Shown piece by piece: positions 2,715-20,052 of a stretch of DNA of 22,590 nucleotides; position 1 is the first letter of the stretch, and the number at the start of each line of letters is the position of its first letter. The DNA is taken from positions 1-22,590 of the IMG/VR virus record IMGVR_UViG_3300022926_000125. One strand, written 5' to 3'. Source of the DNA: a virus. Under the pieces are notes generated by a model. That model saw only the letters and a list, made by a program, of their open reading frames with translations. It did no database searches and was not told the origin of the DNA. The position numbers and the translations under genes were made by a program.

Positions 2715-3590
2715 ATGACTAACGAAATCGTACTAGCAACTGAAGGCCAATCCCTAGCTGAAATGATGGGACTATCCTCAAACTCAAGTGGCTCTCGCTC
2801 TATGCTTCCACGCTTCAGTCAGATCCATAACCCTATCAAGGGTGAGATTGAAGTGAATGGCAAGAAGATTAAAGCTGACGCTGTACCTGCTGGCTCTTAC
2901 AAGCTAACACAAACAGACAAGCCTGACATCTACGCTATCAACCCAGAGATCCGCATCTTTGCCTTACGCTTACAGTGGACACGTTGGGATTCTGACGCTA
3001 AGGTAATGTATAAAACTGTATTGGTTAATTCACTTAATGGTGACCTGAAAGATAACGCAGGAGGCTTCAACGCAGGGCGTCCCTCGGGTTATATTGAAGA
3101 CTTTAAGTCCCTACCTAAAGCAACGCAGGACTTGATGCGTAACACTAAGCGTACCAAGGTTGTCTTTGGTGTCGTAACTATGAAGGGTGCCATGGATGAC
3201 AAAGGTAATCCTATTGAGGACAACAGCATTACTGACGTAGAGATTCCATTCGTTATGGATGTTAAAAGTCGTGGCACAATCAAAGCTATTGATGATGCTA
3301 TCAAAGTTTTGGATCGTAAGGAAGGGTTGCTTCTACAGTATAAGATAGAGCTATCAGCTGAGATGCATGAGAAGCCTGACGGTTCTGAGTATGCGACTAT
3401 GGTCTTAACTCCTAATGTAAAGGTAGACATTGTTGAGCAAGACAAGGAGTACTTGCATAACTTCATGGATTGGATTTCAGGTATGAACAACTACATCTCG
3501 TCCGAGCACGACAAGAAGAACGCAGACAGTCTTGGTGCTGATGCCCTCGAAGCTTTGCATGACATTGTAGATGTAGAGGTAGCTGACTGA
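2715..3590 (+). CDS. Putative single-stranded DNA-binding protein
   Basis: I chose ATG 2715 (291 residues) over the in-frame ATG at 2700, because AAAGG lies just upstream of 2715 and nothing like a Shine-Dalgarno precedes 2700. I do not recognise the family by motif. The protein is soluble, with a Ser-rich N-terminus and a beta-rich middle containing an aromatic stretch (RIFALRLQWTRWD, about residues 79-91). It ends in a strongly acidic tail (DIVDVEVAD). An acidic C-terminal tail after a beta-rich body, and a place directly after the polymerase and before a nuclease, are typical of phage SSBs such as T7 gp2.5, which use the tail to recruit polymerase and helicase. The role is inferred from context and shape. 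Its stop shares 1 nt with the next start, so the two are probably translated together. Confidence 0.5.
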   Translation: MTNEIVLATEGQSLAEMMGLSSNSSGSRSMLPRFSQIHNPIKGEIEVNGKKIKADAVPAGSYKLTQTDKPDIYAINPEIRIFALRLQWTRWDSDAKVMYKTVLVNSLNGDLKDNAGGFNAGRPSGYIEDFKSLPKATQDLMRNTKRTKVVFGVVTMKGAMDDKGNPIEDNSITDVEIPFVMDVKSRGTIKAIDDAIKVLDRKEGLLLQYKIELSAEMHEKPDGSEYATMVLTPNVKVDIVEQDKEYLHNFMDWISGMNNYISSEHDKKNADSLGADALEALHDIVDVEVAD

Positions 3591-5098: not shown

Positions 5099-5262
5099 AA
5101 AGCTTTAGTGTGATGTTCATAATGCGGGTGGACGAGAACAACAACTTCTTAAGTTCCTACGATGAAGCCCACGAAGAAGATGTCCAGGATTTGATTACAG
5201 ATATTATGTATGACGTGGACGATATAGAAATAGAAAACTTAACAGTTAAGGAGCGACAATGA
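5095..5262 (+). CDS. Small acidic hypothetical protein, 55 residues
   Basis: A short reading frame that fills what would otherwise be a 160-nt gap between the DUF3310 gene and mazG. It begins with ATG at 5095, overlapping the upstream TGA, and its own TGA (5260-5262) overlaps the ATG of mazG at 5259, so both ends form ATGA junctions like those of its neighbours. This exact fit is the strongest sign that it is real. The product starts MKSFSVMFIMRVDENNN, likely a beta strand, and continues into an acidic stretch with an amphipathic helix (EEDVQDLITDIMYDVDD). It has no cysteines, no membrane segment and no motif I recognise. Context suggests a minor role in replication or nucleotide metabolism, but no function can be assigned. 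Confidence 0.82.
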   Translation: MKSFSVMFIMRVDENNNFLSSYDEAHEEDVQDLITDIMYDVDDIEIENLTVKERQ

Positions 5263-5639
5263 GTACTATTAGTGACGGTGACCTGGAGGCTTGGGAATAC
5301 TACAATGAAGTATACAAGAACAAGCAGCTAGGATTGAATGACTACCAGAAGGCAGCATCTAAAACAGCAATCTATAGATCAGAACACTCTATCCTGTACC
5401 CTGCGCTGGGCTTAGCAGGTGAGGCAGGAGAGGTAGCTAACAAAGTAAAGAAGATGTTACGTGATAATAAGTTTGATCGTAATGCTATTGCAGCAGAGAT
5501 TGGTGACGTACTGTGGTACATCGCTGCGCTATCACGAGACTTGAACATTGATTTGCATGACTTAGCAATGCAAAACTTAGAGAAGCTTTACGGACGTAAG
5601 GCACGAGGCACACTAGGCGGGAACGGAGACAACAGATGA
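5259..5639 (+). CDS. mazG: MazG-like nucleotide pyrophosphohydrolase
   Basis: 126 residues forming one all-alpha MazG domain. The metal-binding motif is visible as LAGEAGEVANKVKK (E55, E58), followed after about 20 residues by EIGDVLWYIAAL (E80, D83), giving the ExxE...ExxD signature. Family members hydrolyse (d)NTPs to monophosphates and pyrophosphate. In marine phages the roles proposed are cleaning damaged or excess nucleotides or altering host nucleotide signalling; the true substrate here is unknown. The N-terminal 45 residues (YYNEVYKNKQ, DYQKAASKTAIY) are the usual leading helix of phage versions. It is coupled by ATGA overlaps to the 55-residue gene before it and the ribonucleotide reductase after it (5636), placing it in the dNTP supply block. 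Confidence 0.92.
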   Translation: MSTISDGDLEAWEYYNEVYKNKQLGLNDYQKAASKTAIYRSEHSILYPALGLAGEAGEVANKVKKMLRDNKFDRNAIAAEIGDVLWYIAALSRDLNIDLHDLAMQNLEKLYGRKARGTLGGNGDNR

Positions 5640-6233
5640 ATAACTATCTACCAACAGACTACCAAGCATTTATTCACACATCACGTTATGCACGATGGTT
5701 AGAAGAAGAAGGCCGACGTGAGAGTTGGGATGAAACAGTACACCGTTACATGAAGAACGTAGTATATCGTGCACTACCTAATTCAGGTGATGCTTGCGCT
5801 GAGTATGACTATGGTTCAGTTGAGCGTGATCTACGTGATGCTATCTTGGGCCTAGAGGTTATGCCTTCTATGCGAGCTATGATGACAGCTGGCCCAGCGC
5901 TTGAGCGTGACAACACTGCAGGATATAACTGTTCGTATCTACCTGTAGATGATCCCAAGAGTTTCGACGAGGCCATGTTCATTCTGTTGTGTGGCACTGG
6001 TGTTGGCTTCTCTGTTGAACGTCAGTTCGTGACTAAGCTGCCAGAAGTACCACAGTTGTTCCAGAGTGATACCACAGTCGTCGTGAAGGACAGCAAAGAA
6101 GGTTGGGCTAAAGCTCTGCGTCAAGTGGTTGCACTCCTCTATAGTGGCGAGATCCCTAAGTGGGACGTTAGCAAAGTTCGTCCTGCAGGTGCAAGACTAA
6201 AGACGTTTGGAGGACGTGCCTCTGGCCCAGCGC
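5403..6233. repeat. Cluster of three of the six GCCCAGCGC 9-mers in the window
   Basis: GCCCAGCGC occurs on the + strand at 5892-5900, 6225-6233, 11189-11197, 13729-13737 and 18313-18321, and on the - strand at 5403-5411. Five of the six are preceded by CTG or CTC, giving CTSGCCCAGCGC. All lie inside genes, in different reading frames and with different gene orientations. No function is known to me. Confidence 0.75.
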
Positions 6234-7567
6234 CATTGGTTGATCTGTTTAACTTTGTCATCAAGGTATTCAAAGATGCACAAGGACGTAAGCTGTCTAG
6301 CATTGAAGCACACGACATCATGTGTAAGATCGGTGAAGTTGTAGTCGTCGGTGGTGTACGCCGTTCAGCTATGATCTCTCTGTCAAACTTGAGCGATGAT
6401 CGTATGCGTCATGCTAAGTCGGGTCAGTGGTGGGAGAGCAATCCGCAACGTGCATTGGCTAACAACTCTGTGTCATACACTGAGAAGCCAGACAGCCTAT
6501 CCTTCATGCGTGAGTGGATGGCACTGGTAGAGTCAGGCTCAGGTGAGCGTGGCATCTTTAACCGCCAGGCATCTAAGAAACAAGCCTCTAAGAATGGACG
6601 ACGTGATTCTAACTATGAGTTCGGCACTAATCCCTGCTCAGAGATTATCCTTCGTCCGTACCAGTTCTGTAATTTGACTGAGGTTGTTGTTCGTGCAGCT
6701 GATAGTATAGAAGACCTAGAGCGTAAGGTACGTCTTGCTACTGTCTTGGGAACGATCCAGTCTACCTATACTAAGTTCCCATACCTTCGTAAGATCTGGC
6801 AAAACAACACTGAAGAAGAACGTCTGCTTGGAGTTTCTCTGACAGGCATTATGGACAACCCTCTAATGACCACAGCTAATGCAGGTCTAGACAAAACATT
6901 GGAGCACTTACGTGATGTTGCCATTAAAACAAATGCTGAGTGGGCTGATCGTCTTGGCATTCCTGTTGCTGCTGCTATCACTTGTGTTAAGCCATCGGGA
7001 ACAGTATCCCAACTCGTTGACTCTGCCTCTGGGATACACGCACGACATTCACCTTATTACATTAGAACCGTTAGAGGAGATAACAAAGACCCTCTTACAT
7101 CCTTCATGAAAGACCAAGGTATCCCAAATGAACCTGATGTATTTAAACCAGATCAGACTACAGTATTTAGCTTTCCAATTAAGTCACCTGACGATGCCGT
7201 TGTTACCTCAGATGTATCAGCAATTGACCAGTTGAAGATGTGGTTGGCTTATCAGCGTCACTGGTGTGAACACAAGCCATCTGTGACTATCAACGTCAAA
7301 GCTAATGAGTGGTTTGAAGTAGGTGCTTTTGTGTACGATCACTTCGATGAGATGTCTGGTGTATCCTTCTTGCCATACAACGAGCATACATATCAGCAAG
7401 CACCGTACCAAGAAGTAGGCAAGTCTGAGTACGAGCAACTACTATCATTGATGCCTAAGTCAATCGACTGGGCTAAGTTGATGGAGTACGAAAAGGAAGA
7501 CAATACTTCTGGTATGCAGACACTAGCTTGTTCTGGTGACTCATGTGAGATCGTGGACCTGACATAA
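5636..7567 (+). CDS. nrdJ: Adenosylcobalamin-dependent (class II) ribonucleoside-triphosphate reductase
   Basis: 643 residues, monomeric RTPR type as in Lactobacillus leichmannii. Key residues align by spacing: N-terminal redox C99 (AGYNCSY); the NPCSE motif with N332, thiyl-radical C334 and E336; second redox C345, 11 residues after C334 as in the model enzyme; and C-terminal shuttle cysteines C632/C637 in ACSGDSC. MPSMRAMMTAG and LLCGTGVGFSVE are typical of the alpha/beta barrel core. It makes dNTPs from NTPs using vitamin B12 and no oxygen, so it depends on host cobalamin. It is about 100 residues shorter than the Lactobacillus enzyme. It starts in an ATGA overlap with mazG and is followed after 1 nt by a glutaredoxin, the probable electron donor to the C-terminal cysteines. 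Confidence 0.95.
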   Translation: MNNYLPTDYQAFIHTSRYARWLEEEGRRESWDETVHRYMKNVVYRALPNSGDACAEYDYGSVERDLRDAILGLEVMPSMRAMMTAGPALERDNTAGYNCSYLPVDDPKSFDEAMFILLCGTGVGFSVERQFVTKLPEVPQLFQSDTTVVVKDSKEGWAKALRQVVALLYSGEIPKWDVSKVRPAGARLKTFGGRASGPAPLVDLFNFVIKVFKDAQGRKLSSIEAHDIMCKIGEVVVVGGVRRSAMISLSNLSDDRMRHAKSGQWWESNPQRALANNSVSYTEKPDSLSFMREWMALVESGSGERGIFNRQASKKQASKNGRRDSNYEFGTNPCSEIILRPYQFCNLTEVVVRAADSIEDLERKVRLATVLGTIQSTYTKFPYLRKIWQNNTEEERLLGVSLTGIMDNPLMTTANAGLDKTLEHLRDVAIKTNAEWADRLGIPVAAAITCVKPSGTVSQLVDSASGIHARHSPYYIRTVRGDNKDPLTSFMKDQGIPNEPDVFKPDQTTVFSFPIKSPDDAVVTSDVSAIDQLKMWLAYQRHWCEHKPSVTINVKANEWFEVGAFVYDHFDEMSGVSFLPYNEHTYQQAPYQEVGKSEYEQLLSLMPKSIDWAKLMEYEKEDNTSGMQTLACSGDSCEIVDLT

Positions 7568-7568
7568 C

Positions 7569-7808
7569 ATGTACACTATTATCACACGAAACCAGTGTAA
7601 CTTCTGTGATACAGCCAAGGCTCTGTTAAGGAGCCAAGGCTTACCCTTCACAGTATATAATGTCCAAGATCCTGAGACTAAGTGGTTGCTTACTCTGATC
7701 AAACAGGCAGGGCACACAACAGTACCACAAGTGTTTGGACCTGATGGTTCTTACATTGGTGGGTACACAGAGTTAAAGGATCAACTTAATGCAGCTGGAT
7801 ATGTTTAA
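7569..7808 (+). CDS. Glutaredoxin (NrdH-like redox partner)
   Basis: 79 residues with a complete thioredoxin-fold glutaredoxin pattern. The sequence opens with a beta strand, then NQCNFCDTAK with redox pair C10/C13, then the cis-proline loop TVPQVF (P53), and finally GGYTEL (G64/G65), which in glutaredoxins contacts glutathione or the partner protein. The active site CNFC is not one of the most common forms (CPYC, CVQC). It begins 1 nt after the ribonucleotide reductase stop and most likely reduces that enzyme's C-terminal cysteine pair after each turnover. Whether it takes electrons from glutathione or from host thioredoxin reductase cannot be decided from sequence. Its 3' end overlaps the next gene by 20 nt. 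Confidence 0.93.
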   Translation: MYTIITRNQCNFCDTAKALLRSQGLPFTVYNVQDPETKWLLTLIKQAGHTTVPQVFGPDGSYIGGYTELKDQLNAAGYV

Positions 7809-8214
7809 AAATCTTGATGCCTATATAAAGGAAGAGGTAAAGACATGCCGTATCTGCCAGGAGGATAAACCTGTATCTATGTTTCAGGGTACTACAGGAG
7901 GCAAAGCTAAGCAGAGAGTATGTAAGAGTTGCTTTAAGGATCAATACCATAAAGTAAAAAAACTAAAAGAAAAAATACCTCTCCCATCAGCTGATTACTG
8001 TTGCCCTATCTGTGAAAGAAACGAAGCAGAATTAAAGAAGATAGAGAAAACTAAAAAGACTGTCTGGAGTTTTGATCACTGTTGGACCACCTACACCTTT
8101 AGAGGGTGGTTGTGTCATAGGTGTAATAGGGGTCTTGGGTTCTTTACCGACGATATAAACTCTTTAAAAAATGCCGCTATCTATTTAGAGCGTTCATCTA
8201 AGGACACACTATGA
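7789..8214 (+). CDS. Endonuclease VII-like HNH (beta-beta-alpha-metal) nuclease
   Basis: 141 residues. The C-terminal half fits the recombination endonuclease VII family: C72xxC75, then FDHCWTT (D96, H97), RGWLCHRCNRGLGFF with C109xxC112 and the presumed catalytic N113, and an ending NSLKNAAIYL. Four cysteines (C72, C75, C109, C112) form the zinc site that braces the nuclease. The usual DHDH is reduced to DHC, so the second histidine is missing. The N-terminal half adds another CxxC pair (C20/C23, C45/C48), a second zinc knuckle. Family role: resolving branched DNA, or nicking as a homing-type HNH enzyme. ATG 7789 was chosen over the ATG at 7801 because AAGGA (7776-7780) lies 8 nt upstream. 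It sits between glutaredoxin and phoH, overlapping both, so it is integrated in the operon. Confidence 0.85.
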   Translation: MQLDMFKNLDAYIKEEVKTCRICQEDKPVSMFQGTTGGKAKQRVCKSCFKDQYHKVKKLKEKIPLPSADYCCPICERNEAELKKIEKTKKTVWSFDHCWTTYTFRGWLCHRCNRGLGFFTDDINSLKNAAIYLERSSKDTL

Positions 8215-8924
8215 TCGAAGATCGTGAACCACCAAAGAAGCAATCTCGTACTCGTCGCAAGACAAACTACAAGGGGGCTGACAGTAAGAAGACCTCAGGC
8301 TTCACGCCACGTACTAACAATCAGCGTGACCTGTGGGACTACATGAAGACACACGATCAAATCTTTATCCTTGGTCCAGCGGGTACAGGTAAGACATTCG
8401 TTACTGCTACGTTTGCAGCTGACCTGTATACACTCAAGGAGATAGACAAGATTGTTATCACTCGTCCTCATGTGGCTGTTGGTAAGGATGTAGGTTATCT
8501 ACCTGGTACACTAGAGGAGAAGACCTACCCCTGGGCTTTACCTGTTCTAGATGTACTGACTAAGCATCTGGGTAAGGGTGCAGTAGAGACTGGCATCAAG
8601 AATGGCAACATTGAGATGGCACCTCTAGCGTTAATGCGTGGGCGTAGCTTTGAGGATGCTTTCATTATTGTAGACGAGACACAGAACATAACAACGCATG
8701 AACTGAAGATGCTCCTAACTCGTGTGGGTGAGGGCAGTAAGATCGTACTCAATGGTGACGTACAACAGTCAGACTTAAAGGAAGCGGATGGCTTATCAAA
8801 GGTTATTCATCTAGCTAAGAAACATATGCTAGACATTCCTATTATTGAGTTTGGTGTAGAGGATATTGTACGTAGTGGTATCTGTGCTGAGTGGGTTAAA
8901 GTATTCCTTAAGGAAGGATTATAA
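8211..8924 (+). CDS. phoH: PhoH-like ATPase
   Basis: 237 residues, one P-loop domain of the PhoH family. Walker A is GPAGTGKT (55-62), Walker B is FIIVDETQN (D155/E156), and NGDVQQSD (181-188) is the sensor I segment. TRPHVAVGKDVGYLPGTLEEK (84-104) is the family signature loop. The first 35 residues are basic and probably disordered (KKQSRTRRKTNYKG), which could contact nucleic acid. PhoH is very common in marine phages. It is named from the phosphate-starvation regulon, but biochemical work on the family points to RNA-linked ATPase or helicase activity, so the phage role is unsettled. It starts in an ATGA overlap with the HNH nuclease and is the last gene of the coupled replication operon. 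Confidence 0.94.
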   Translation: MIEDREPPKKQSRTRRKTNYKGADSKKTSGFTPRTNNQRDLWDYMKTHDQIFILGPAGTGKTFVTATFAADLYTLKEIDKIVITRPHVAVGKDVGYLPGTLEEKTYPWALPVLDVLTKHLGKGAVETGIKNGNIEMAPLALMRGRSFEDAFIIVDETQNITTHELKMLLTRVGEGSKIVLNGDVQQSDLKEADGLSKVIHLAKKHMLDIPIIEFGVEDIVRSGICAEWVKVFLKEGL

Positions 8925-8927
8925 TGC

Positions 8928-8957
8928 TTGACACCTAAGTTGTATTTATGATACACT
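8928..8957 (+). promoter_or_regulatory. Candidate sigma70-type promoter before the 68-residue ORF
   Basis: The 77-nt gap after phoH contains a perfect -35 hexamer TTGACA (8928-8933). An 18-nt spacer leads to TACACT (8952-8957), which is preceded by TGA, an extended -10 (TGn). The -10 matches the consensus at four of six positions. It would start transcription near 8964 and drive only the small ORF at 9002 before the terminator at 9215, separating that gene from the long operon. A TATGAT at 8947 is better as a hexamer but only 13 nt from the -35, so it is less likely. Confidence 0.5.
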
Positions 8958-9001: not shown

Positions 9002-9208
9002 ATGTTAACACTCGAAGAAGAGGCTAAGCGTTTCATTGAGTCTAAGAAGGTACAGTTTATAGCAGGTCTTGAGGATGGTATGGATGACATCCTAGACTAC
9101 TTGTTAGATAACTTATACCCCTCAGATGAAAAGGACTACGCTATAAAAGCCCTGAAAGAAGCTGTACTATGGTCACGAGAATGTGCTAATAAGTACGGCA
9201 TACAATAA
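9002..9208 (+). CDS. Small helical protein, candidate Acb2/Tad1-hairpin-type cyclic-nucleotide sponge
   Basis: 68 residues, ATG at 9002 with only a weak GGATTGG upstream. Predicted to be all helical: a charged N-terminal helix (LEEEAKRFIESKK), a middle helix (MDDILDYLLDNL), then a turn with PSDEKDYAIKALKEAVLWS and a short tail. The pattern P-S-x-E..A...L.EA..W is the one I associate with the hairpin domain of Acb2, the phage protein that sequesters CBASS cyclic oligonucleotides, and with related small T4-type proteins. The similarity is by eye and covers about 30 residues, so the family call is tentative. The gene is set apart from the replication operon by its own promoter and terminator, as accessory host-takeover genes often are. 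If it is not Acb2-like, its function is unknown. Confidence 0.72.
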   Translation: MLTLEEEAKRFIESKKVQFIAGLEDGMDDILDYLLDNLYPSDEKDYAIKALKEAVLWSRECANKYGIQ

Positions 9209-9214
9209 ACTAAA

Positions 9215-9245
9215 AGGGAGGCCGTGATAGCCTCCCTCTTTTTAT
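9215..9245. terminator. Bidirectional intrinsic terminator between convergent arms
   Basis: AGGGAGGC (9215-9222) pairs perfectly with GCCTCCCT (9230-9237) around a 7-nt loop. The + strand continues CTTTTTATTT, a classic U-tract for the small ORF ending at 9208. Read on the - strand, the same hairpin is followed by TTTTAGTTTA, which can end transcripts of the virion gene that stops at 9242. One 8-bp stem thus serves both converging operons. Confidence 0.92.
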
Positions 9246-12200
9246 TTCAAACCATAAAGTTTATCTGTTGCTTTAGTTTCTTTTTCTTCCATATCAAGGT
9301 AGAACTTTATGATCTCTAGCTGCTCAGTGTCTAGCTTAGAGGGATCAGATTCAAATCCCATATCGTTTAGGATCTTAGCCAATTCTTTCTTTGGCACCTT
9401 ACCTAACTCCCATAACACTTTAGTACGAGTATCAGCTGGGTCATACGATACAGCCAACATATCTTTAATGTCACCCTTAGCTAAAGTTATAATCTGAGAA
9501 ATCATCGTCTTACGATCAGCAGCTGAAGCATTCTTCCATTTGTTTGTATCCATGTACATAGAAGCATAGTAGTTCAGCACTGGTGTGATCATACGATTGA
9601 TGTCATTCAGTGGCTCAGCAATGTTAGACCTAATGCCTGTACGCCACTGGGCTAGACCTGCCTCATTGAACATCTCTTGAATAGGGGACTGTGCTAACTC
9701 CTCACGAATACCAAAGATACGCCCAATAGGTACACGATCCTGCTCAGCTGTTAGTGGGCGCTGCTTTTGTTCAGGCTTAGTGTACAGATCCATAGCACCC
9801 AGAATTTCATCAACGTAACGCACAGAGTTATTCACCCATTCGCTACCCTGACGACGATCAGGTGATACGTATGGTGTACCTTTAGATAGAGCGATCACTT
9901 GGTTGACTGGATCTAGTGGACGTGAGTAGCCTGACAGATACATAGACGCAGACTTAGATACAAACTCACCTAGCATACGCTTAGCTTCGACATCATCAGA
10001 TGTAGTTATATCAACTAGCATATCGTAAGCGCCTTGAATGCTATCACCAAGCTGACGTGTAAGCTGTTGAGGGCCAAACGTTGCAGCTAGTTCTTCAATC
10101 AAAGGCTTAGGTACTTCACCGTCACGGTACACATGTGCAGCCATACGTCCTACTGCCTTGTAGAAGCTATAAGGGAAGTCATACATACGGTTACGAATAG
10201 TACCATCTGAGCTACGCTCCTGGTACCATGCTAGTCCTTCATCCAAGTAGTCCATCTCATAGGTAGCAGCAGCCCCAATAAAGGTAAGACCAACAGCAGA
10301 CTTAGTTAGCAACTCCATAGGATCACGTGCAGTACCAGCTACGTATTTGTGGATAAGGCTGATACCTGTGTGGTCCATCATGTGGCCAAGCGTGTTGTTG
10401 AAGAACTGACCAAAGGGAATCATAGCCCCAATGATAGGCAGCTTACGTACATCTTCAATGACCTTAGCAGCAAACTGTAGTGTACCCTCTGTACCACCAT
10501 ACTGCTTAGCAAACACGTTACGTAGTGCGTCCTCTGAGGCGACTGACACAATACGTGCATACTCATCCCCAGTCATACGCTTCCATAGGTTCTCATCCTT
10601 AAGGAAGTCTACATAAGATACACCATACTCTAGACGTACTTGCTTGTCGATTGCGTACATAAACTCCTGAGACTTAGTTAGGATGTCTTGCGCTTTAACG
10701 CCATAGATTGTTTGTGCACCATCCATGATCTTATCAAAGACATTACGCTTCTGGACTAGAGCATCAGCCTCCTTAATGCCCATGTCTTTAGCCATAGCAC
10801 CGAAGTCTTGGAAGCCTAGATCTTTAGCAATCTCTTCTAGTTCAATACCACCAGACAGATACTTGAACATCTTCTTCTGTGCTTCAGGGTTATACGCAGC
10901 GAAGTCCATGAACGCTTCATACGTCATGTGTGGGTCTAATAAGTTACGTGCTTTCTGCTTCTGCAAGCTAAACATCAAGCCAGCTTTACGGGCATACTTA
11001 GCAGCCCCTTCCTTGTTAAACATAGCTGCATTAAGCAGAGAGCCAGTACCATACAGAGTACCACGTACAATGTCAGATGCTGATTGCATAACGCTAGCTG
11101 TCTGCCAACCAATCAAGTTGAGGGCAGTCGTACCAGGGTGAGTAACAAGCATACGAATAAGGTTACGCTGCAGGTAGTGTGTACCCTCGCCCAGCGCATC
11201 ACGTACTTTCTGTGAGATTGCTGGTAGCTCTGCCTCAATGACACCCTCAAGCATCTTATCAGGATCAGCCTTAGGAATATACTTTAGAGTTCTGCTCATC
11301 TGAGACAGAATGTTAAGCTCTTGTCCAGCCTTACTGAATTGCTCAGCGTCCATCTTAAGAGCTTGAGTAAAGGACTTACCCTTGTACTCATCAACAGACT
11401 TACCTAAGCTACTACGGAAGGCTTCGTCTATGTCTTTCTGTGCTGCAGCTGGAAGCTCAATAATTAAGTCATGCATCCAGTTAGCAAAGTTATCACCATC
11501 AAAACGTGGTGACCAGTTGCGTACACCATTATCAGCTAAGATACCAGCCACACCCTTAATACCTAAAGCTTCATCACCTAGATAGAAAGCTTTACGGATC
11601 TGTGTTTCTTTCTGTGGTACTTTACCACCAGCCAGCATACGAATAATGCTACCCTGCTGTACCTTAGTGGCAAACTCTTCCATCTTCTTCTTAAAGTCAG
11701 GAAGGCTATCCTGGAATCCCTTAATGTCTAGGTCTTCCTTGGCAGCTTTCTTAACGTCACCCGCAATAGTACGTGCTCTTGCAAGGTTCTGGTTAGCTAA
11801 GTCAAAGTAGTATGCACCAAGCATGTCTGCCTCTGGACCAGTAGCACGACCGAGCATGTTAAGACCCAGGGATAGACCTGTACCAAACACACCACCAGCT
11901 GCAGCAACAGAGCCTTGGATCAAGTCGTACTCAGTCTGTAGCCCAACTTCCTGCATAGCCTGTTGGTACACAGCGTCAATAGATACACCAGCCACAGTGT
12001 CAGTTACACCAGTAGCTATAGCTTCAGTGGTTGCAATACCACGTAGTCTCTTAGAGAACTCACCAGCAGCGACGTCCTTAAAGCCTTCATTCTTTAGTAC
12101 TTTACCAATAAGCTGACGCTCAATCTGTTTAGCTTCTTGCTTAGCTAATTCAGTTAAGCCTCTCTTCTTGATGATGTCTGCTACTTCTTTCTTAACAGCC

Positions 12201-12763
12201 TCTTTAGCAATCTGTGCAGCTGCTTTAGCTCCACCACCAGTAAAGACTTTACCTACACCCAAAGAGATTAAGTTGACTGGATCAACTACCAGTGCACGAC
12301 CATAGTCATACACAGCATCAAGCTTCTCCATGCCAGATGTACCCTCAGCGAAGGCACCCTTCATAGCGTCAAAGGTAGTATAAGCTGCAGCAGCCTCAGC
12401 CTTCTGTACTTCAGAGGCATTCTTCAAGTAAGACATCTCACCCAGTGTAACTACAGACTGACCGAAGTTAAACTTACGCATGTTGTTCACATAAGCATCG
12501 ACAATCTTCTGACGGTCAAACTTATCCTCCGTCATACCAAAGCGAGACTTCATGTAGGGTGCAATCTTAGCAAAGATCTTGTCTTGTGTAAGGTCACGCA
12601 CCCCTTCAGGAGTAGCTTCTGTGTCATCAGTAGGCTGTAGGTACTTTGTAAAGTCTTCACCGTCTTCTTCTACAGGAGTTAGATACTTAGTATAATCCTC
12701 TGTGTCGTCCTCCTGAGTTTCTTCTTCGTTTACAGGTACAAGATACTTTGTAAAGTCTTCCAT
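9242..12763 (-). CDS. Large virion protein, putative internal/DNA-ejection protein (1173 residues)
   Basis: 1173 residues, the last gene of the virion operon. I recognise no enzyme motif. The N-terminus (1-50) is acidic and carries three copies of (D)FTKYLxP at residues 3-10, 23-30 and 37-44. Beyond it are Ala/Gly-rich amphipathic stretches (VDPVNLISLGVGK near 160, GSVAAAGGVFGTGLSLGLNMLG near 284-305) and a later segment AVGLTFIGAAATYEMDY, of the kind that insert into membranes. Size, helical Ala-rich make-up and a place directly downstream of a transglycosylase gene fit the large ejected core proteins of podoviruses (T7 gp15/gp16 role), which form a channel across the host envelope. The assignment rests on context. 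The ribosome binding site is weak (AAGG 11 nt upstream), so it may be coupled to the gene 11 nt before it. Confidence 0.62.
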   Translation of the reverse strand: MEDFTKYLVPVNEEETQEDDTEDYTKYLTPVEEDGEDFTKYLQPTDDTEATPEGVRDLTQDKIFAKIAPYMKSRFGMTEDKFDRQKIVDAYVNNMRKFNFGQSVVTLGEMSYLKNASEVQKAEAAAAYTTFDAMKGAFAEGTSGMEKLDAVYDYGRALVVDPVNLISLGVGKVFTGGGAKAAAQIAKEAVKKEVADIIKKRGLTELAKQEAKQIERQLIGKVLKNEGFKDVAAGEFSKRLRGIATTEAIATGVTDTVAGVSIDAVYQQAMQEVGLQTEYDLIQGSVAAAGGVFGTGLSLGLNMLGRATGPEADMLGAYYFDLANQNLARARTIAGDVKKAAKEDLDIKGFQDSLPDFKKKMEEFATKVQQGSIIRMLAGGKVPQKETQIRKAFYLGDEALGIKGVAGILADNGVRNWSPRFDGDNFANWMHDLIIELPAAAQKDIDEAFRSSLGKSVDEYKGKSFTQALKMDAEQFSKAGQELNILSQMSRTLKYIPKADPDKMLEGVIEAELPAISQKVRDALGEGTHYLQRNLIRMLVTHPGTTALNLIGWQTASVMQSASDIVRGTLYGTGSLLNAAMFNKEGAAKYARKAGLMFSLQKQKARNLLDPHMTYEAFMDFAAYNPEAQKKMFKYLSGGIELEEIAKDLGFQDFGAMAKDMGIKEADALVQKRNVFDKIMDGAQTIYGVKAQDILTKSQEFMYAIDKQVRLEYGVSYVDFLKDENLWKRMTGDEYARIVSVASEDALRNVFAKQYGGTEGTLQFAAKVIEDVRKLPIIGAMIPFGQFFNNTLGHMMDHTGISLIHKYVAGTARDPMELLTKSAVGLTFIGAAATYEMDYLDEGLAWYQERSSDGTIRNRMYDFPYSFYKAVGRMAAHVYRDGEVPKPLIEELAATFGPQQLTRQLGDSIQGAYDMLVDITTSDDVEAKRMLGEFVSKSASMYLSGYSRPLDPVNQVIALSKGTPYVSPDRRQGSEWVNNSVRYVDEILGAMDLYTKPEQKQRPLTAEQDRVPIGRIFGIREELAQSPIQEMFNEAGLAQWRTGIRSNIAEPLNDINRMITPVLNYYASMYMDTNKWKNASAADRKTMISQIITLAKGDIKDMLAVSYDPADTRTKVLWELGKVPKKELAKILNDMGFESDPSKLDTEQLEIIKFYLDMEEKETKATDKLYGLK
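12632..12763 (-). repeat. Triple FTKYLxP peptide repeat at the N-terminus of the 1173-residue protein
   Basis: DFTKYLVP, DYTKYLTP and DFTKYLQP begin at residues 3, 23 and 37, separated by acidic linkers rich in E and D. Unequal spacing (20 and 14 residues) and conservation of only the short core point to a binding peptide kept by selection rather than a recent tandem duplication. Confidence 0.85.
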
Positions 12764-12774
12764 TGGACACAGCC

Positions 12775-14688
12775 TTATCGGTTATTCAGTTTATCACGAA
12801 GCTCATATAGAGATGCTAGTAGTGTATCACGAGAGTCTGTCTTAGGCAAATCCTTAGTCTTGCTGATTAGTTTGGTTACATCTGCTGCAGTCATGCTTTC
12901 ACTGCGATCCAGAGATTTAGCTACTGTAGAACCTGCACCGTGTAGACGATCAACCATAGATTTGATAGAGTCAATATCACTCATAACGTCAGGCTTTGCG
13001 TCTGGACGTGACTTAGTAGGTTCAGAGGGGCGTGACATTAGCCCTGCATTGTTTGGTGCACGATCACCACCCGTTGGAACCATAGCAGATACTTCACTTG
13101 CAATATCACCGTCTACCATTGCAGGAGGTGTATCAATGTATTCTACTTCGGTGTCTGCCCTCTTAGCTGAGAATGTACCGCCTCCCGTCTCTGTATCTTG
13201 AGCTTTACCATATAGAGCAGCTGTTGCGTCTGATGTGGCTTCTGTTTGATCATTATTAAACAGTCTATTTATAGCACCTTTAAAGTAGTCAACTAGAGAG
13301 GGGACTTCCTCTGATTCAAACTTTTTAAGTTCTTCTTGTATGTCTACTGGTAGTGGCGTATTAGATAGCAAGCTCTCAAAAGTAGCATCACCCATGTCAC
13401 TATTAATGAAAGCATCATACTCATCTTGTAGATCTTCTGGTAGATCTGACTTAAAGGTATCAATGGCTTCTTGTACTTCTGGTGTTTTAACTACTTCTTT
13501 AATGTCTTCACGATCAAATCTTCCTTTAAAGCGCTCAGCCAATCCTGGAGCTTTAGGAGGTTTAACAGAGGGACCAGTATACGTAGATGTTTTACCAGCG
13601 ACTGTAACCGTGTCATTAGGCTGTACTGTGCCATCAGCTACGGCTTTATTAAAGTCTGCTGCTGTATCAAATATGTGTGTCTTTGGTGTTCTCGGAGCTG
13701 TTGGAGCTATCGGTGCTGTTGGCTCCTCGCCCAGCGCTTCTTGCGTTTGTATAACTGCAGGTGTTTCTTCCTTGTCCTCAGACATATAAGCTTTAAGTAC
13801 TGGATTAAACTGAGGAGCATACGTATTACGAGTAAGGATACCTGGAGTAATTGCTTCCATAGATGCAGCATACTTCAAGAAGCTAGGATCTATAGCCGCA
13901 TACTCAGCAAAACCAGCAATAGATTTCCCTTTTAATGTCTCTAGATCTTCAATCTCTTGTTTTAACTTAGCTACACCTTCTGTGTTTGTGGGATCTAGTT
14001 CGTTCAGTTTCAGGGTTGCAGCACGAATACGAGCATCAATACCTGATTCAAACACATCTGATAGAGTAGTAACAGCAGATCTTTGTTGGGAGTCTGTAGC
14101 TGGCTTACCAGGTAAGTTCAAGTCTAATGCTTGGCCTCCTGTAAGCTTTGGCGCTGTACCCATAACACGATATAGGTCACGACCTGTCATGCCATTGATG
14201 TAGATGTCATCAAGTACTTCGTCTTCCATCATACCATTGTCTAAGCCAAAGATAGCAGCAAGAGCATTGCTCTCACGCTTCACAGGATTGTCACCACCCT
14301 TGTATAGACCATAAGCTTTATTGATAACCTTGGTAAGATCTACATCAGGGTTATCAGCTACATAGTCTTTAGCTTTCTTGATCAGTGCTTTCTTGTCTTC
14401 AGCTGTAAGATCATCACGATCCTCAAGAGTAGTCTTTAGTTGCACCAGTCCTTGGATTCCACTTGTGTTTAACACATAGGCAACGTCTGCTTTGTCAATA
14501 CCATAGGTCATAACTGAATTAGCAATACCTAAAGCTGCTTGTGCTTTTTCTTCACGATCAACAATAGCTTTAGTACCATACGTTTGTAGATACTCTTGAC
14601 GCTTAGCTGCACGATCACGTGCATACTGTTTACGCTCTTCAATACCCTTAGCTAGAGTAGTACCAAAACCAGCCCAGAAACCTGCCAT
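12775..14688 (-). CDS. Putative internal virion/structural protein (637 residues)
   Basis: 637 residues, family not recognised. The N-terminus MAGFWAGFGTTLAKGI is a short Gly-rich hydrophobic segment followed by a basic, helical, coiled-coil-like stretch (EERKQYARDRAAKRQEYLQ). The middle is largely helical and charged. From about residue 300 the protein becomes Pro/Thr-rich and low in complexity, with repeated PTAP-type steps (EEPTAPIAPTAPRTPK), and it ends in a helical region (TLLASLYELRDKLNNR). A segment near the C-terminus, NNAGLMSRP, resembles the last residues of the upstream 202-residue protein (RSGLMARG). It lies between two genes of the virion block with gaps of 4 and 11 nt, so it is almost certainly co-transcribed and probably packaged. 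GAGG 8 nt upstream supports the start. An internal core or ejection protein is the likeliest role. Confidence 0.58.
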   Translation of the reverse strand: MAGFWAGFGTTLAKGIEERKQYARDRAAKRQEYLQTYGTKAIVDREEKAQAALGIANSVMTYGIDKADVAYVLNTSGIQGLVQLKTTLEDRDDLTAEDKKALIKKAKDYVADNPDVDLTKVINKAYGLYKGGDNPVKRESNALAAIFGLDNGMMEDEVLDDIYINGMTGRDLYRVMGTAPKLTGGQALDLNLPGKPATDSQQRSAVTTLSDVFESGIDARIRAATLKLNELDPTNTEGVAKLKQEIEDLETLKGKSIAGFAEYAAIDPSFLKYAASMEAITPGILTRNTYAPQFNPVLKAYMSEDKEETPAVIQTQEALGEEPTAPIAPTAPRTPKTHIFDTAADFNKAVADGTVQPNDTVTVAGKTSTYTGPSVKPPKAPGLAERFKGRFDREDIKEVVKTPEVQEAIDTFKSDLPEDLQDEYDAFINSDMGDATFESLLSNTPLPVDIQEELKKFESEEVPSLVDYFKGAINRLFNNDQTEATSDATAALYGKAQDTETGGGTFSAKRADTEVEYIDTPPAMVDGDIASEVSAMVPTGGDRAPNNAGLMSRPSEPTKSRPDAKPDVMSDIDSIKSMVDRLHGAGSTVAKSLDRSESMTAADVTKLISKTKDLPKTDSRDTLLASLYELRDKLNNR

Positions 14689-14692
14689 ATCC

Positions 14693-15301
14693 TTAACCTC
14701 GTGCCATTAGACCACTACGTACAGGTGCTTCCTGTTCCATCTGTGGCTGTTGTTCTTCCATTGGTGCTTCGCCTTCCATAGGCATAGCTTCTGTCTCTTC
14801 TTCCATCATGGGCATTTCATCTTCCATGCCACCTAGCCCAGAGGCTACGTCACGCATCAAGTCTACACCCTCATCGTCTTCCTTAGTACCCTCAAGCTTC
14901 TTAATACGTTCTAGTACCAGAGCTTTGACTTCCTCTTCACGCTGACGTTGTTTAGTCTCTTCGTCATCGCCATCACCCATCTTGAAGGGAATACCTGAGT
15001 CCTCAGCAATAGCCTTAAGTTCTTCCTGTACTACAGGCAAGACAATCAGACCTACGTCTACAGAGTGAATACCATCCATCTGTGCTTTGGTTACGATAGT
15101 CTTAGCTAGTGGAGCTAGAGGTACACCCAACTGTAGGACTTGAAGAAGATTGTCCATTACGTTAGTTTTGTTTAGGTGGTTAATGTGGAAGTCAATAGCT
15201 TCTTCAGGATCACTAATCTCTGGTGGACGTTCCCAAGGATGGTTACGTGGTTCATCTGTTAGGGATTGCCCTGGGATAGGTGCATCAAATACGCTTGCCA
15301 T
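14693..15301 (-). CDS. Acidic hypothetical virion-operon protein (202 residues)
   Basis: 202 residues. The first 90 include FHINHLNKTNVMDNLLQVLQ, helical and conserved-looking, then a compact domain (VDVGLIVLPVVQEELKAIAEDSG). The C-terminal third is low complexity, made of Met, Glu, Pro and Gln (repeated EEEMPM/EGEAPMEEQQPQ-like units), ending RSGLMARG. No catalytic motif or membrane segment is visible. AAGGA 7 nt upstream of the ATG supports the start. It lies 12 nt after the transglycosylase gene and 4 nt before the 637-residue protein, so the three are one transcription unit. Acidic helper or scaffold-like roles during assembly of the ejection core are possible but unproven; I do not recognise the family. 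Confidence 0.75.
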   Translation of the reverse strand: MASVFDAPIPGQSLTDEPRNHPWERPPEISDPEEAIDFHINHLNKTNVMDNLLQVLQLGVPLAPLAKTIVTKAQMDGIHSVDVGLIVLPVVQEELKAIAEDSGIPFKMGDGDDEETKQRQREEEVKALVLERIKKLEGTKEDDEGVDLMRDVASGLGGMEDEMPMMEEETEAMPMEGEAPMEEQQPQMEQEAPVRSGLMARG

Positions 15302-16173: not shown

Positions 16174-19100
16174 TTACCCTAGCTTACCTAAGCCCCATTC
16201 AAGAGCACCCTCAACGAGCTTACCAAAGAGTGTACCTTTACCCATCTGGTCTGCTAGCTCAGCCTGTTGATCCGCACTTAGCTCTTGTAGCAATACAGAA
16301 GCGATACGGTCTGCAGCATTCTCAGCTGAAGTAAACGCAAAGCTCATAATGTCACGCTCACGCTGCCAATACTGATCCAGGTTAGCTGCAGTCATGCTGT
16401 TCATAGTACGAGCATACTCCATGTTAGACTGGTTCTGTGCAGCTGTGTTGATCGTAGCAATGTTCTGTCTCCAGTTGGCATTGGCTTGAGCAACGACTAG
16501 ACCATTCTGAGCGTTGAACATATCACGCTGTTCTTGTAGTCCCGCATTAAACTGACGCATAGAGTTAATGCTATCAGTGTTGTACTGAGCCATAGCGTTC
16601 TGTTGGGCTGCGTTGAATGTGCTTGTCTGTGTAGCCAGGTTAGCAAAGAATTGATCTGCTTGGTTCTCACTAGAAGCGTTGAACTGTAGTGAGGCATTCT
16701 CTGCTGCCTGGTCAGTCAGTATAGACTGTTGTACAGCTTGAGCCTTAAACATAGCAGCTTGCTGTTCGTTTGTCAAGTTAGACATATCCATCTGCAGGAA
16801 GGCTTGAGCATTTTGTACCGCTACCTGTTGTTTGTTAGACAGGTTAGCCATATCCATAGCAGCAATCTGTGCAGCGTTCTGTAGTGTAGATGCTTGCTTA
16901 GAGTTTAAGTTAGCAAGACCAACAGTCTTCATCAATTCAGAGTTATGAAGCTGGGCTTGTTGCTGTGCAGTAAACGTTAAGTTGTTAGCCTCAGAAAAAC
17001 GTGCAGCATTAGTGATAGCTGTTTGCTGGCGGTTATCAATAGTCTTACCCTGTAACGCTGCCTCTAGCTGAGCATTCGTAATGTATGACTGTTGCTTAGA
17101 TGAGAGGTTAGCTAAGTCTACTTGCAGGTTGTTCTGACTACCCTGTAGTACAGCCTGTTGAAGATTAGACAGGTTTAAGTTAGACGCTTCAGCATAACGT
17201 GCAGCAACCACTAGGTTAGACTGTTGTTCATTAGTTAAGTTCTGACCCTGTAGAGCAGATTTAATCTGTGCATTAGCAAGTACAGCCTGTTGCATGTTTG
17301 ACAAGTTCTGAGACTGTAGACCAAAAGCGTTCTGTGAGTTCTGCAGTGCAGCCTGTTGCTCAGCATTGAAGTTAGCTAGTTCTACACCCTGTTGTGCAGC
17401 CGCATTCGTAAGGGCTACTTGTTGTTGACGGTTTAGATTATCCATCTTCATAGAACGGAAAGCTTCTGCATCTGCTGCAGCAATAGGGATAGCTGATTCC
17501 ATAGTAGCCTGAACAATAGCAGCTGCAGCCATAGAGCTACCACCTAAGCCACGTGCAGCCATGGCAGCGTTAGCCGCTCGCATAGCACCAGCAGCCCAAG
17601 CAGGAGTACCATCATCAAAGTCTTTCATCAGCTGAGATAGTTGACCCTGAACAGTGTCTTGCGCTTCAATCTTACCCTCTTTAAAGGCTACAAGAGTACC
17701 CTCATCTAGGGAGAACTTAGCAAGCTTTGCAGCTGTGGCTGTAGCATCAGTAGTCAAACCCGACATAGTAATAGCTTCAGCCTGGGCCATCTCTGACTCA
17801 GCGATCTGTGCAGGTTTAGGTAGCTCTTCTGGTTTAACTGTAGTCTGTGCCGCTTTAATGTTTTCAGGTACATTAGCTTGAGCAATGTTAGCTTTTACTG
17901 CTTCTTCGTCTAGACCCTGAGCCTGAGCTAGTTCCTGTGCTGTAACATTACGCTGTCCTGCAAATACAGAATCTATATAGTTAGGGTCAAACGCAGCAGC
18001 ATCAGCCTTTGCCTCAGGCGATAACTCACCCTGTGCAGCCACCGCTTGTGCTTCCTTAGAGACCTCACCCTGAGCGGCAGTAACACCTTCTGTTTTAAAC
18101 TTACCCTGAGGTGCACCTTTAACCCACCCCTTTGGAGCGGTATAGCCACCACTAGGTACTAATACCTGCTCGCCTGTGGTTGGGTTATGGAAAGTCTCAA
18201 AAGCTTGGGTGACCATGCTTCCACGGGGTGGAGGTGTAAACCCTGCATCTGCCGCTGAGACCTTTTTGTAGTCTCTTTCGGTGCCATACAAAGCTTCAGA
18301 CACTTGAGGCTGGCCCAGCGCAGCGTCATACATCATAGTTGGACCTTTTTCTACTGTCTGTGCTTGAGCAGTAATAGGTACAGTAGAAGCCTCTTGCATA
18401 TTAGCTAAGGGTAATACTTGACCTGCATCTTCAGGGATGAAATCTCCAGCAGTAGGTATAATACCTTTTACAGTAGCTTGACGGGGTGTCATCGTTTGAG
18501 TGATAGTGTCCTGAGCTTGTCCAAAGAATTGATCCTGAAAGTCAGGGCTTACTGACACGTCTACACCCTCATCTGCATATAGTACAGCACCGCCTTGCGC
18601 CAAGTTTCCTCTTACCATACCACCACGTGCAAGAGCTACACCAATAGCACGAGCCTTAGCTTTTAGAGCGTCACTGCTATTGAAGAAGGCTTTCAGTGCT
18701 GTGCTAGACTGTGGACCTTTGTAGCCGTTCATCTTAGCAATAGTGAAGAGAGCCTCTGTCTGAGTGTCACCACCCTTAACAGTACCACCCTCAGCAAACG
18801 ATCCCCCTAAGTCAATAGGCTTAGAAAACTCTCTCCCTAAGTCAACATCAGTAGGCTTAACTTTATACTTAGGCTCATACAGAGTATTATCGCCTTTAAG
18901 CGGTTTAGTTGCGATACCCTTACCCCTACTATACCCTGGAGGCACAGCTGTGATAGGCTTGCCGTTAAGCTCAGTGATCATCATCTGTGCTCCGTACTTG
19001 TTAGTATAGGGTACGTCTTTATAGCCTGTACCAATGAATTCACCTGAGCCTGGAGCAGTAGTCACCAGTGAAGAATCAATGTTACCTACTGTACCTGCAT

Positions 19101-20052
19101 AGCTTGTACGATAGGATACAGTATCAGGCAAAGCACTCTCTGAGGCATTAACTGCAGATGTATAACTTACAGGGGCAGTCTTCATACGATTCTCAATAGA
19201 AGCACCAAAGCGATCACTAATACCAGACTTACGTCCCTCTTCAGCTAGTCGTATCTCCTCAGCTTTACGTAATTCTTCAGTTAGTCTACGCTGTTCCTCT
19301 TCCTTAGCTTTAGCAGCTGCAAGTTCTTCAGCCTCAACACGTATAAGCTCTTCTTGTTCAGCACGAGCCTGAGCTAATGCTTCTTCTACAGCTTTCTTAC
19401 GTTCAGCCTCTGCAGCAGCATTCTCTTCCTCAGCTTTTCTTGCAGCTTCTTCTGCAGCCTCCTTACGTGCAGCCTCTTCCTCTAATTGCTTCTGCTTCTC
19501 TGCCTCTGCAGCAGCTTTAGCCTCTTCATCTGCAGCTTTTTTATCAGATACAGTCGTTTCAAACTCGCTTAAGTTTTTTGCATTTGTATTATACTCATTA
19601 ATGGCATTAAGAACAGCTTGAATACGTGGGCCTTCATCATCATACTTTTTAAGAGCACCAAGAGACAGTTGAGTACCGTCTTTAAGTACGACTTTATAAG
19701 TGTTACGCCCACCAACAACTTTCCATCCACTCGTATCTAAAGTCTTACCTTCTTGAATAGCTTTATATGCAGCCATCTTGAGAGTACCACGCCAGCCATC
19801 ACCAGAGATAGCACCCTCATCGTTTAAGCCTAAGTATGTCTTTAGTTGCTTATCTAATAGTGTTTTAAGATCAGCCTCTTCACCACTTAGCCCAGCAGCC
19901 TTAGCTCCACCTGCAGCGTTAGCTTTATCAGCATAATCCTGTGCAGAAGACTGTGAATTAGTCTTATATACGACTTGCCCTAATGGGTTCTTAACTTCAT
20001 AGCCCTTATAAAAAAGAGATGAAGATCGAGATACTGTGTATGCGCTAGCCAT
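16174..20052 (-). CDS. Giant repeat-rich structural protein (1292 residues), coiled coil plus Gln/Asn repeats
   Basis: 1292 residues, AGGAG 6 nt before the ATG. Layout: a globular N-terminal part (1-165); a long Ala/Glu/Lys/Arg coiled coil (about 170-275) of AAEEAARKAEEE-type sequence; a flexible middle with Gly-rich FAEGGTV, LARGGMVRG and LAQGGAV motifs (about 440-520) and QGELSPEAKADAAA-like repeats; then about 11 tandem units of roughly 22 residues with core NLSNxQQAxxxNAQ (870-1114); then a helical C-terminus ending in WGLGKLG. There are no enzyme motifs. Long fibrous proteins of this type are frequent in the virion block of marine podoviruses, but their exact place (tail, core or ejected protein) is not settled. 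It is followed after 11 nt by the transglycosylase, which suggests a shared role in tail or DNA entry. Two hairpins lie upstream. Confidence 0.72.
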   Translation of the reverse strand: MASAYTVSRSSSLFYKGYEVKNPLGQVVYKTNSQSSAQDYADKANAAGGAKAAGLSGEEADLKTLLDKQLKTYLGLNDEGAISGDGWRGTLKMAAYKAIQEGKTLDTSGWKVVGGRNTYKVVLKDGTQLSLGALKKYDDEGPRIQAVLNAINEYNTNAKNLSEFETTVSDKKAADEEAKAAAEAEKQKQLEEEAARKEAAEEAARKAEEENAAAEAERKKAVEEALAQARAEQEELIRVEAEELAAAKAKEEEQRRLTEELRKAEEIRLAEEGRKSGISDRFGASIENRMKTAPVSYTSAVNASESALPDTVSYRTSYAGTVGNIDSSLVTTAPGSGEFIGTGYKDVPYTNKYGAQMMITELNGKPITAVPPGYSRGKGIATKPLKGDNTLYEPKYKVKPTDVDLGREFSKPIDLGGSFAEGGTVKGGDTQTEALFTIAKMNGYKGPQSSTALKAFFNSSDALKAKARAIGVALARGGMVRGNLAQGGAVLYADEGVDVSVSPDFQDQFFGQAQDTITQTMTPRQATVKGIIPTAGDFIPEDAGQVLPLANMQEASTVPITAQAQTVEKGPTMMYDAALGQPQVSEALYGTERDYKKVSAADAGFTPPPRGSMVTQAFETFHNPTTGEQVLVPSGGYTAPKGWVKGAPQGKFKTEGVTAAQGEVSKEAQAVAAQGELSPEAKADAAAFDPNYIDSVFAGQRNVTAQELAQAQGLDEEAVKANIAQANVPENIKAAQTTVKPEELPKPAQIAESEMAQAEAITMSGLTTDATATAAKLAKFSLDEGTLVAFKEGKIEAQDTVQGQLSQLMKDFDDGTPAWAAGAMRAANAAMAARGLGGSSMAAAAIVQATMESAIPIAAADAEAFRSMKMDNLNRQQQVALTNAAAQQGVELANFNAEQQAALQNSQNAFGLQSQNLSNMQQAVLANAQIKSALQGQNLTNEQQSNLVVAARYAEASNLNLSNLQQAVLQGSQNNLQVDLANLSSKQQSYITNAQLEAALQGKTIDNRQQTAITNAARFSEANNLTFTAQQQAQLHNSELMKTVGLANLNSKQASTLQNAAQIAAMDMANLSNKQQVAVQNAQAFLQMDMSNLTNEQQAAMFKAQAVQQSILTDQAAENASLQFNASSENQADQFFANLATQTSTFNAAQQNAMAQYNTDSINSMRQFNAGLQEQRDMFNAQNGLVVAQANANWRQNIATINTAAQNQSNMEYARTMNSMTAANLDQYWQRERDIMSFAFTSAENAADRIASVLLQELSADQQAELADQMGKGTLFGKLVEGALEWGLGKLG
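16711..17445 (-). repeat. About 11 tandem ~66-bp repeats encoding NLSNxQQAxxxNAQ units
   Basis: Residues 870-1114 of the 1292-residue protein consist of about 11 units, for example LANFNAEQQAALQNSQNAF, NLSNMQQAVLANAQIKSAL, ANLSSKQQSYITNAQLEAAL and ANLSNKQQVAVQNAQAF. Mean length is about 22 residues. The invariant QQ and the Asn/Leu positions suggest a repeated helical hairpin or beta-helix rung. The DNA copies have diverged, so the array is old. Confidence 0.88.
19228..19545 (-). other. Coiled-coil segment of the 1292-residue protein
   Basis: Roughly 105 residues (170-275) composed almost wholly of Ala, Glu, Lys, Arg and Gln with heptad-like spacing and no Pro or Gly until the end. A long single alpha-helix or coiled coil is expected. 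Confidence 0.85.

Follow-up and report, generated by a model that had tools for sequence, protein, structure and literature searches.

The window analysed here is a stretch of viral DNA of 22,590 nucleotides (positions 1 to 22,590 of IMG/VR record IMGVR_UViG_3300022926_000125), and its 68-codon open reading frame (ORF) 9002-9208, the last gene of the plus-strand arm, is a real, conserved gene. Our preferred reading, which we put forward tentatively, is that it encodes a diverged helical hairpin of the Acb2/Tad1 sponge superfamily whose ligand specificity has been altered or lost, joined to a group-specific docking tag and carried in a slot whose payload can be swapped. We therefore refer to it as the slot protein. 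The following features bear on this reading:

9002-9208, plus strand: slot protein of 68 amino acids, an N-terminal tag followed by an Acb2/Tad1-like helical hairpin (ORF, homologues, purifying selection and AlphaFold2 model)
9011-9046, plus strand: N-terminal tag, residues 4-15 (LEEEAKRFIESK), with the consensus [LI]-E-x-E-A-x-x-[FWY]-[ILMV]-x-x-[KR]
9062-9193, plus strand: residues 21-64, aligned to the canonical Acb2/Tad1 hairpin family by hhalign over 44 columns
9146-9148, plus strand: codon of Lys49, the position equivalent to Thr68 of T4 Acb2

Homologues of the slot protein comprise 52 distinct proteins in viral contigs, and others are found in the isolated Roseobacter phages CRP-2 (gp43), CRP-207 and CRP-603. 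Among HMO-2011-type marine podoviruses the ratio of non-synonymous to synonymous substitution rates lies between 0.03 and 0.18, showing that the ORF is under purifying selection. A profile search of genome contigs found no cellular or prophage relative. The initial annotation had located this ORF accurately, and the peptide on which it based a family call, PSDEKDYAIKALKEAVLWS, is present at residues 40-58.

Judged by sequence comparison, residues ~21-64 are very probably a remote homologue of the Acb2/Tad1 hairpin. PF24729 (Acb2/Tad1 hairpin) was the only Pfam family matched by the window protein, at 15.2 bits where the gathering cut-off is 27 bits, and it was matched by 22 of 38 relatives. 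More relatives (30/38, best 6e-7) matched PHROG 1454, the family that canonical PF24729 proteins themselves match at up to 3e-37. When an alignment of the 38 relatives was compared by hhalign with a canonical PF24729 alignment, built from proteins of Gordonia, Mycobacterium, Arthrobacter and Streptomyces phages, the two matched with a probability of 94.8% over 40 columns; a more diverse set of relatives raised this to 96.3% (E 1.8e-9, 44 columns). The best score from 200 column-shuffled profiles was 18.5, against a real score of 43. Moreover, the hairpin profile score goes up once more diverged relatives join, and the canonical members match only the hairpin part of the slot protein. The AlphaFold2 model is an antiparallel two-helix hairpin (helices 4-37 and 42-65) with a predicted local distance difference test score of 95.4, and a Foldseek search of viral proteins with this model returned best matches mostly named Acb2/Tad1 hairpin. 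The family call of the initial annotation thus holds at the level of the superfamily, by profile comparison, the PHROG 1454 bridge and the predicted hairpin, but not at the level of the Pfam model; of the checks it had proposed, a profile search and a structure prediction, the former succeeded profile against profile and fell short against Pfam.

We then compared the gene with its positional counterparts. Related phages without the hairpin end their early arm with the gene of either an AT-hook-like/YFAGxAL protein (CRP-13, CRP-9 and many contigs) or MazG (HMO-2011, CRP-1, CRP-345 and many contigs). The tag consensus occurs in all three slot classes, at the N-terminus or right after the AT-hook stretch, and its presence follows the slot position: a relaxed form of the motif was found in 65 of 68 terminal MazG proteins and in none of 69 internal ones, the window's own MazG (5259-5639) included. 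A position-specific scoring matrix (PSSM) of 13 columns, trained on the N-termini of terminal MazG only, gave 60/60 hairpin proteins and 28/29 YFAGxAL proteins higher scores than any of 691 background proteins of at least 200 amino acids, although sequences within each class are related and these counts are not independent. The N-terminal profiles of the three classes match one another pairwise (hhalign 95.6, 95.3 and 90.3%), with 0/100 shuffles reaching the real score, whereas the N-terminal profile gave no match to internal MazG (hhalign 0.3%). The full YFAGxAL profile matched the window family at the tag only, over 18 columns. The first 13-18 residues of the slot protein form a module distinct from the hairpin. 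Tag residues are more conserved than the hairpin: in the most diverged hairpin relatives the only columns without variation are E5, E7 and A8, all within the tag. The exact octapeptide LEQEAQEF is present in two slot classes; among the loci in viral contigs listed for DNA encoding it (at least 80), 74 were YFAGxAL proteins, 3 were MazG and 3 were truncated by contig ends. Codon likeness between classes is close to or below the expectation from codon usage, and the tag is therefore conserved at the protein level.

In tagged MazG the tag stands ahead of a normal-looking MazG start, MSDFNSYQ, for example in CRP-1 gp30. The annotation of this gene (MK613343; locus 3013-3393) begins 51 nucleotides late, and the upstream open frame adds MNKLKEEAEQFLKEKYN, the omitted tag. 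Internal MazG proteins, that of the window among them, have another conserved pattern at the N-terminus, approximately D[IL][ED]A[FW]x[YF][YF]. We also found contigs of identical lengths (NZIV01000047/30 and NHFY01000045/18; 62,825 and 55,371 bases) carrying a phage-type ribonucleotide reductase and a tagged terminal MazG in both Neomarinimicrobiota and Flavobacteriales metagenome-assembled genomes; these are probably mis-binned phage contigs in public genomes. Cobaviruses such as ICBM2 have a different small gene at the slot position. Two other ideas were considered: a remnant of DNA-level recombination as the source of the tag is not supported, given the cross-class codon identity, and the YFAGxAL domain as another Acb2/Tad1 hairpin was rejected, as it scored hhalign 0.3% against canonical members and had no named structure match. 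Within a limited literature search, the passages of PMC9038755 and PMC6918029 reached by search terms hold no description of the slot or the tag.

The known ligand residues of the superfamily are lost from the slot hairpin. T4 Thr68 aligns with Thr in 10/10 canonical members, as well as in PaMx33 p26 (Thr74), Tad1 and 'Acb2 homolog 43' (9ptq); this position is Lys49 in the window and K, E, R, Q, D or L in its relatives, without a single T. The Tyr8/Tyr11 segment has no counterpart, and the unrelated tag stands where Acb2 has the N-terminal segment that supplies half of its dinucleotide pocket. PaMx33 Arg67, a residue of the trinucleotide pocket, is Asp42 in the window and variable in relatives, a loss that is not decisive because T4 Acb2 also has Asp here. 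In T4 Acb2 the Y8A variant is binding-deficient and T68M reduces binding (PMC12657230). With the known pocket residues gone, anti-CBASS activity (against the cyclic-oligonucleotide-based antiphage signalling system) through those pockets is unlikely, although the protein may bind some other nucleotide-like ligand, and the anti-CBASS or anti-Thoeris function expected in the initial annotation finds no support at the residue level. A true Acb2- or Tad1-type sponge, binding CBASS cyclic di- or trinucleotides or glycocyclic ADP-ribose (gcADPR) via the known pockets, would fit the remote homology, the predicted hairpin and the small size of a protein encoded last in the early arm; however, with the Thr68/Thr74 position being Lys, Glu or Arg in 38/38 relatives, we consider it quite improbable. 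Less probable still is that the likeness to Acb2/Tad1 is a coincidence, produced by the E-K..A..L.EA..W heptad pattern of some generic short helical hairpin. The sub-threshold Pfam score would be expected in that case, and so would the structural tie described below, but none of the shuffled profiles came near the real score, two independent libraries agree on the same family, the score climbs as more diverged relatives are added, and the unrelated YFAGxAL slot family gives no canonical match.

Several other observations join the residue losses in weighing against the reading that we prefer. On the side of the hairpin, the window protein and all singly scored relatives fall below the PF24729 gathering cut-off. 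VIA-align places T4 Vs.4 (Z 7.3, 3.2 A, 66 aligned residues) level with unrelated helical hairpins, and comparison with PDB folds therefore does not discriminate; Foldseek found nothing in the PDB below E 0.9. Thus the structure prediction delivered the two-helix hairpin, but overlays on PDB entries do not set it apart from generic ones. Searching PDB sequences with the protein and with two profiles gave no significant match, the weak ones being unrelated helical proteins, and 'Acb2 homolog 43' was the sole Acb2/Tad1 chain among the matches, at E 0.6. On the side of the tag, which is short, CRP-2 endonuclease I scored 15.6 with the tag PSSM, more than the CRP-2 slot protein (13.7), and gp05 also scored (10.8). 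No tagged gene was detected in a PSSM scan of the first 50 kb of the HMO-2011-type isolate CRP-235, whose last early gene, gp20 (locus 2548-2769), is without the tag. Moreover, the YFAGxAL payload has no known link to nucleotides. The N-terminus of the CRP-2 endonuclease I (locus 14486-14920) reads GLEKEVAAWL, and its tag-like score may reflect chance or the same type of helix.

The shared tag might also be convergent, LExEAxxF being expected in any short protein that starts with a soluble amphipathic helix, with the slot proteins otherwise unrelated. The shortness of the motif, the similar helix in CRP-2 endonuclease I and the unrelated codons across classes all suit this explanation. We nevertheless think it unlikely, given the split between terminal and internal MazG, the N-terminal profile matches that stand far above shuffles between all three classes and are null against internal MazG, and the occurrence of LEQEAQEF in two classes, with 77 slot proteins among the loci listed. 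A stronger competitor is that the hairpin has been recruited to a job other than that of a sponge, such as scaffolding or regulating replication or nucleotide metabolism, with the tag docking it, as it would MazG, to a shared complex, for example ribonucleotide reductase or polymerase. The constant syntenic place behind ribonucleotide reductase, glutaredoxin, endonuclease VII and PhoH points this way, as do the tag held in common with MazG, the lost ligand residues and the conservation of the tag above that of the hairpin. On the other hand, superfamily members of known function are sponges, the partner is a candidate only, and free swapping of the slot content fits accessory genes better than core machinery. 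We doubt this alternative, yet in likelihood such a non-sponge role falls only a little short of the preferred reading.

Under the preferred reading, a diverged sponge-superfamily hairpin with a docking tag in a swappable slot, residues ~21-64 would form the diverged Acb2/Tad1-superfamily helical hairpin, and residues ~3-18 a group-specific amphipathic helical tag in place of the N-terminal segment that in Acb2 supplies half of the cyclic-dinucleotide pocket. HMO-2011-type phages would have a fixed slot, last in the early arm, that exchanges its payload between the hairpin, a MazG nucleoside triphosphate (NTP) pyrophosphohydrolase and the AT-hook/YFAGxAL protein. The hairpin would most likely still oligomerise and bind a nucleotide or a nucleotide-derived signal, acting as a sponge or modulator whose specificity differs from that of known Acb2 and Tad1, possibly in counter-defence. 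The tag would most likely dock whichever payload it carries to a single constant partner, of the phage or of the host. Acb2 and Tad1 bind nucleotide signals (PMC12043709) and MazG is a nucleotide enzyme, and thus two of the three payload classes concern nucleotides. For the group as a whole we hypothesise, with similar reserve, that HMO-2011-type phages possess one payload slot in which a conserved docking tag is fused to interchangeable, unrelated effector domains. On this view the tag would be gained only by proteins encoded in the slot, and it may therefore act as an address by which phage accessory proteins are delivered or docked.

The surroundings of the gene in the window are as follows:

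5259-5639, plus strand: internal MazG (PF03819) with an untagged N-terminus
5636-7567, plus strand: B12-dependent ribonucleotide reductase
7569-7808, plus strand: glutaredoxin (PF00462)
7789-8214, plus strand: endonuclease VII (PF02945)
8211-8924, plus strand: PhoH-like protein adjoining the slot gene upstream (PF02562, E 3e-64)
8928-8957, plus strand: promoter-like site TTGACA-18-TACACT, kept in the clade of the window
9215-9247: terminator common to both convergent arms (9215-9237 folding at -15.1 kcal/mol, z -3.4)
9242-12763, minus strand: opening gene of the structural arm that converges on the early arm, 1173 amino acids, 33 bp from the slot gene

The initial annotation placed the gene in an isolated transcription unit with its own TTGACA promoter and a strong terminator, a usual arrangement for accessory genes. 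The promoter site exists, and in ten members of the window's clade TTGAC is invariant and the extended -10 element is conserved, although promoter matches of this kind in the region are at chance level (5 found, 4.5 expected). In CRP-2-type relatives there is no dedicated promoter, and the slot gene has 4 nucleotides in common with the PhoH or endonuclease VII gene upstream; the isolated unit is therefore a clade-specific arrangement. The terminator is real, but it also belongs to the minus-strand arm that converges on it, and every relative examined has it at the junction of the two arms. Likewise, the accessory-type arrangement applies in part, since in most relatives the slot gene closes the main early operon.

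Upstream of the slot gene, the plus-strand arm holds early genes of replication and nucleotide metabolism, those listed being joined by DUF3310 and endonuclease I. The DNA polymerase ORF (612-2660) has two CXXCXGXG motifs, CRTCEGNG and CSDCGGLG, and a DnaJ-type CXXCXGXG insertion in this enzyme is given as a hallmark of HMO-2011-type phages in PMC6918029. The gene order is that of CRP-2 and HMO-2011, with convergent early and structural arms. Taken together, the polymerase hallmark and the gene order identify the window as DNA of an HMO-2011-type marine podovirus. A marine podovirus had indeed been predicted; the prediction of uncultured-type hosts was too pessimistic, as cultured relatives infect Rhodobacteraceae and SAR116 isolates. 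In the structural arm, the 1292-residue protein at 16174-20052 (minus strand) has a long array of imperfect repeats (NLSNxQQAxLxNAQ), and a tail-fibre-like protein at 20721-22589 (minus strand) has YadA-type NTAVGYQAGY repeats and a C-terminal region that by eye resembles an intramolecular chaperone.

HMO-2011-type phages are among the most abundant phages in the ocean, and these data would extend the Acb2/Tad1 hairpin superfamily to this group in a form missed by the public Pfam model. The ligand residues are gone here, and the label 'Acb2/Tad1 hairpin' therefore need not imply CBASS evasion. Moreover, with one short tag, three unrelated domains and one locus, and with position alone deciding whether a MazG is tagged, modular targeting in phages can be tested directly at the slot. 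Finding the partner of the tag would reveal where an entire class of early proteins of these phages acts, and searches of the slot could yield new counter-defence proteins.

Among known systems, the small PF24729/PHROG 1454 proteins of Gordonia, Mycobacterium and Streptomyces phages have the same helical hairpin, with turn-[R/D]-E-K-x-x-A-x-x-x-L-x-E-A-x-x-W, and are likewise encoded by a small stand-alone gene, at times near ThyX or endonuclease VII. The slot protein differs from them in lacking the N-terminal part DIxxRFxFHPATT..H...R, the arginine of GRE and the invariant Thr. In several Gordonia and Mycobacterium phages the canonical PF24729 gene lies directly behind the ThyX thymidylate synthase, a nucleotide-metabolism neighbourhood as in the window. 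T4 Acb2 (Vs.4; 7uq2) and PaMx33 Acb2 (p26; 8h2j) share the superfamily fold, L51, E53, A54 and W57 of the window being L70, E72, A73 and W76 of T4 Acb2, but beyond the substitutions at the pocket positions and the missing tyrosine segment there is no direct sequence match to either. Tad1 (7uav, 8kbe and others) resembles the slot protein in the C-terminal hairpin helix motif SRExxxxxTxxEEAxMW; however, its N-terminal part is a beta domain and its ligand is gcADPR, whereas the slot protein is all-helical and without the beta domain, the Thr and the Arg. Within the phage group itself, MazG of HMO-2011 (ADW08407), CRP-1 gp30 and CRP-345 gp39 share slot and tag and carry the NTP pyrophosphohydrolase as their C-terminal domain instead. 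The AT-hook-YFAGxAL proteins CRP-13 gp34 and CRP-9 gp35 also share both (LEQEAQEF in CRP-13 gp34), but in CRP-13 the AT-hook-like stretch precedes the tag, and the C-terminal helical domain of the two proteins is unrelated to the slot hairpin.
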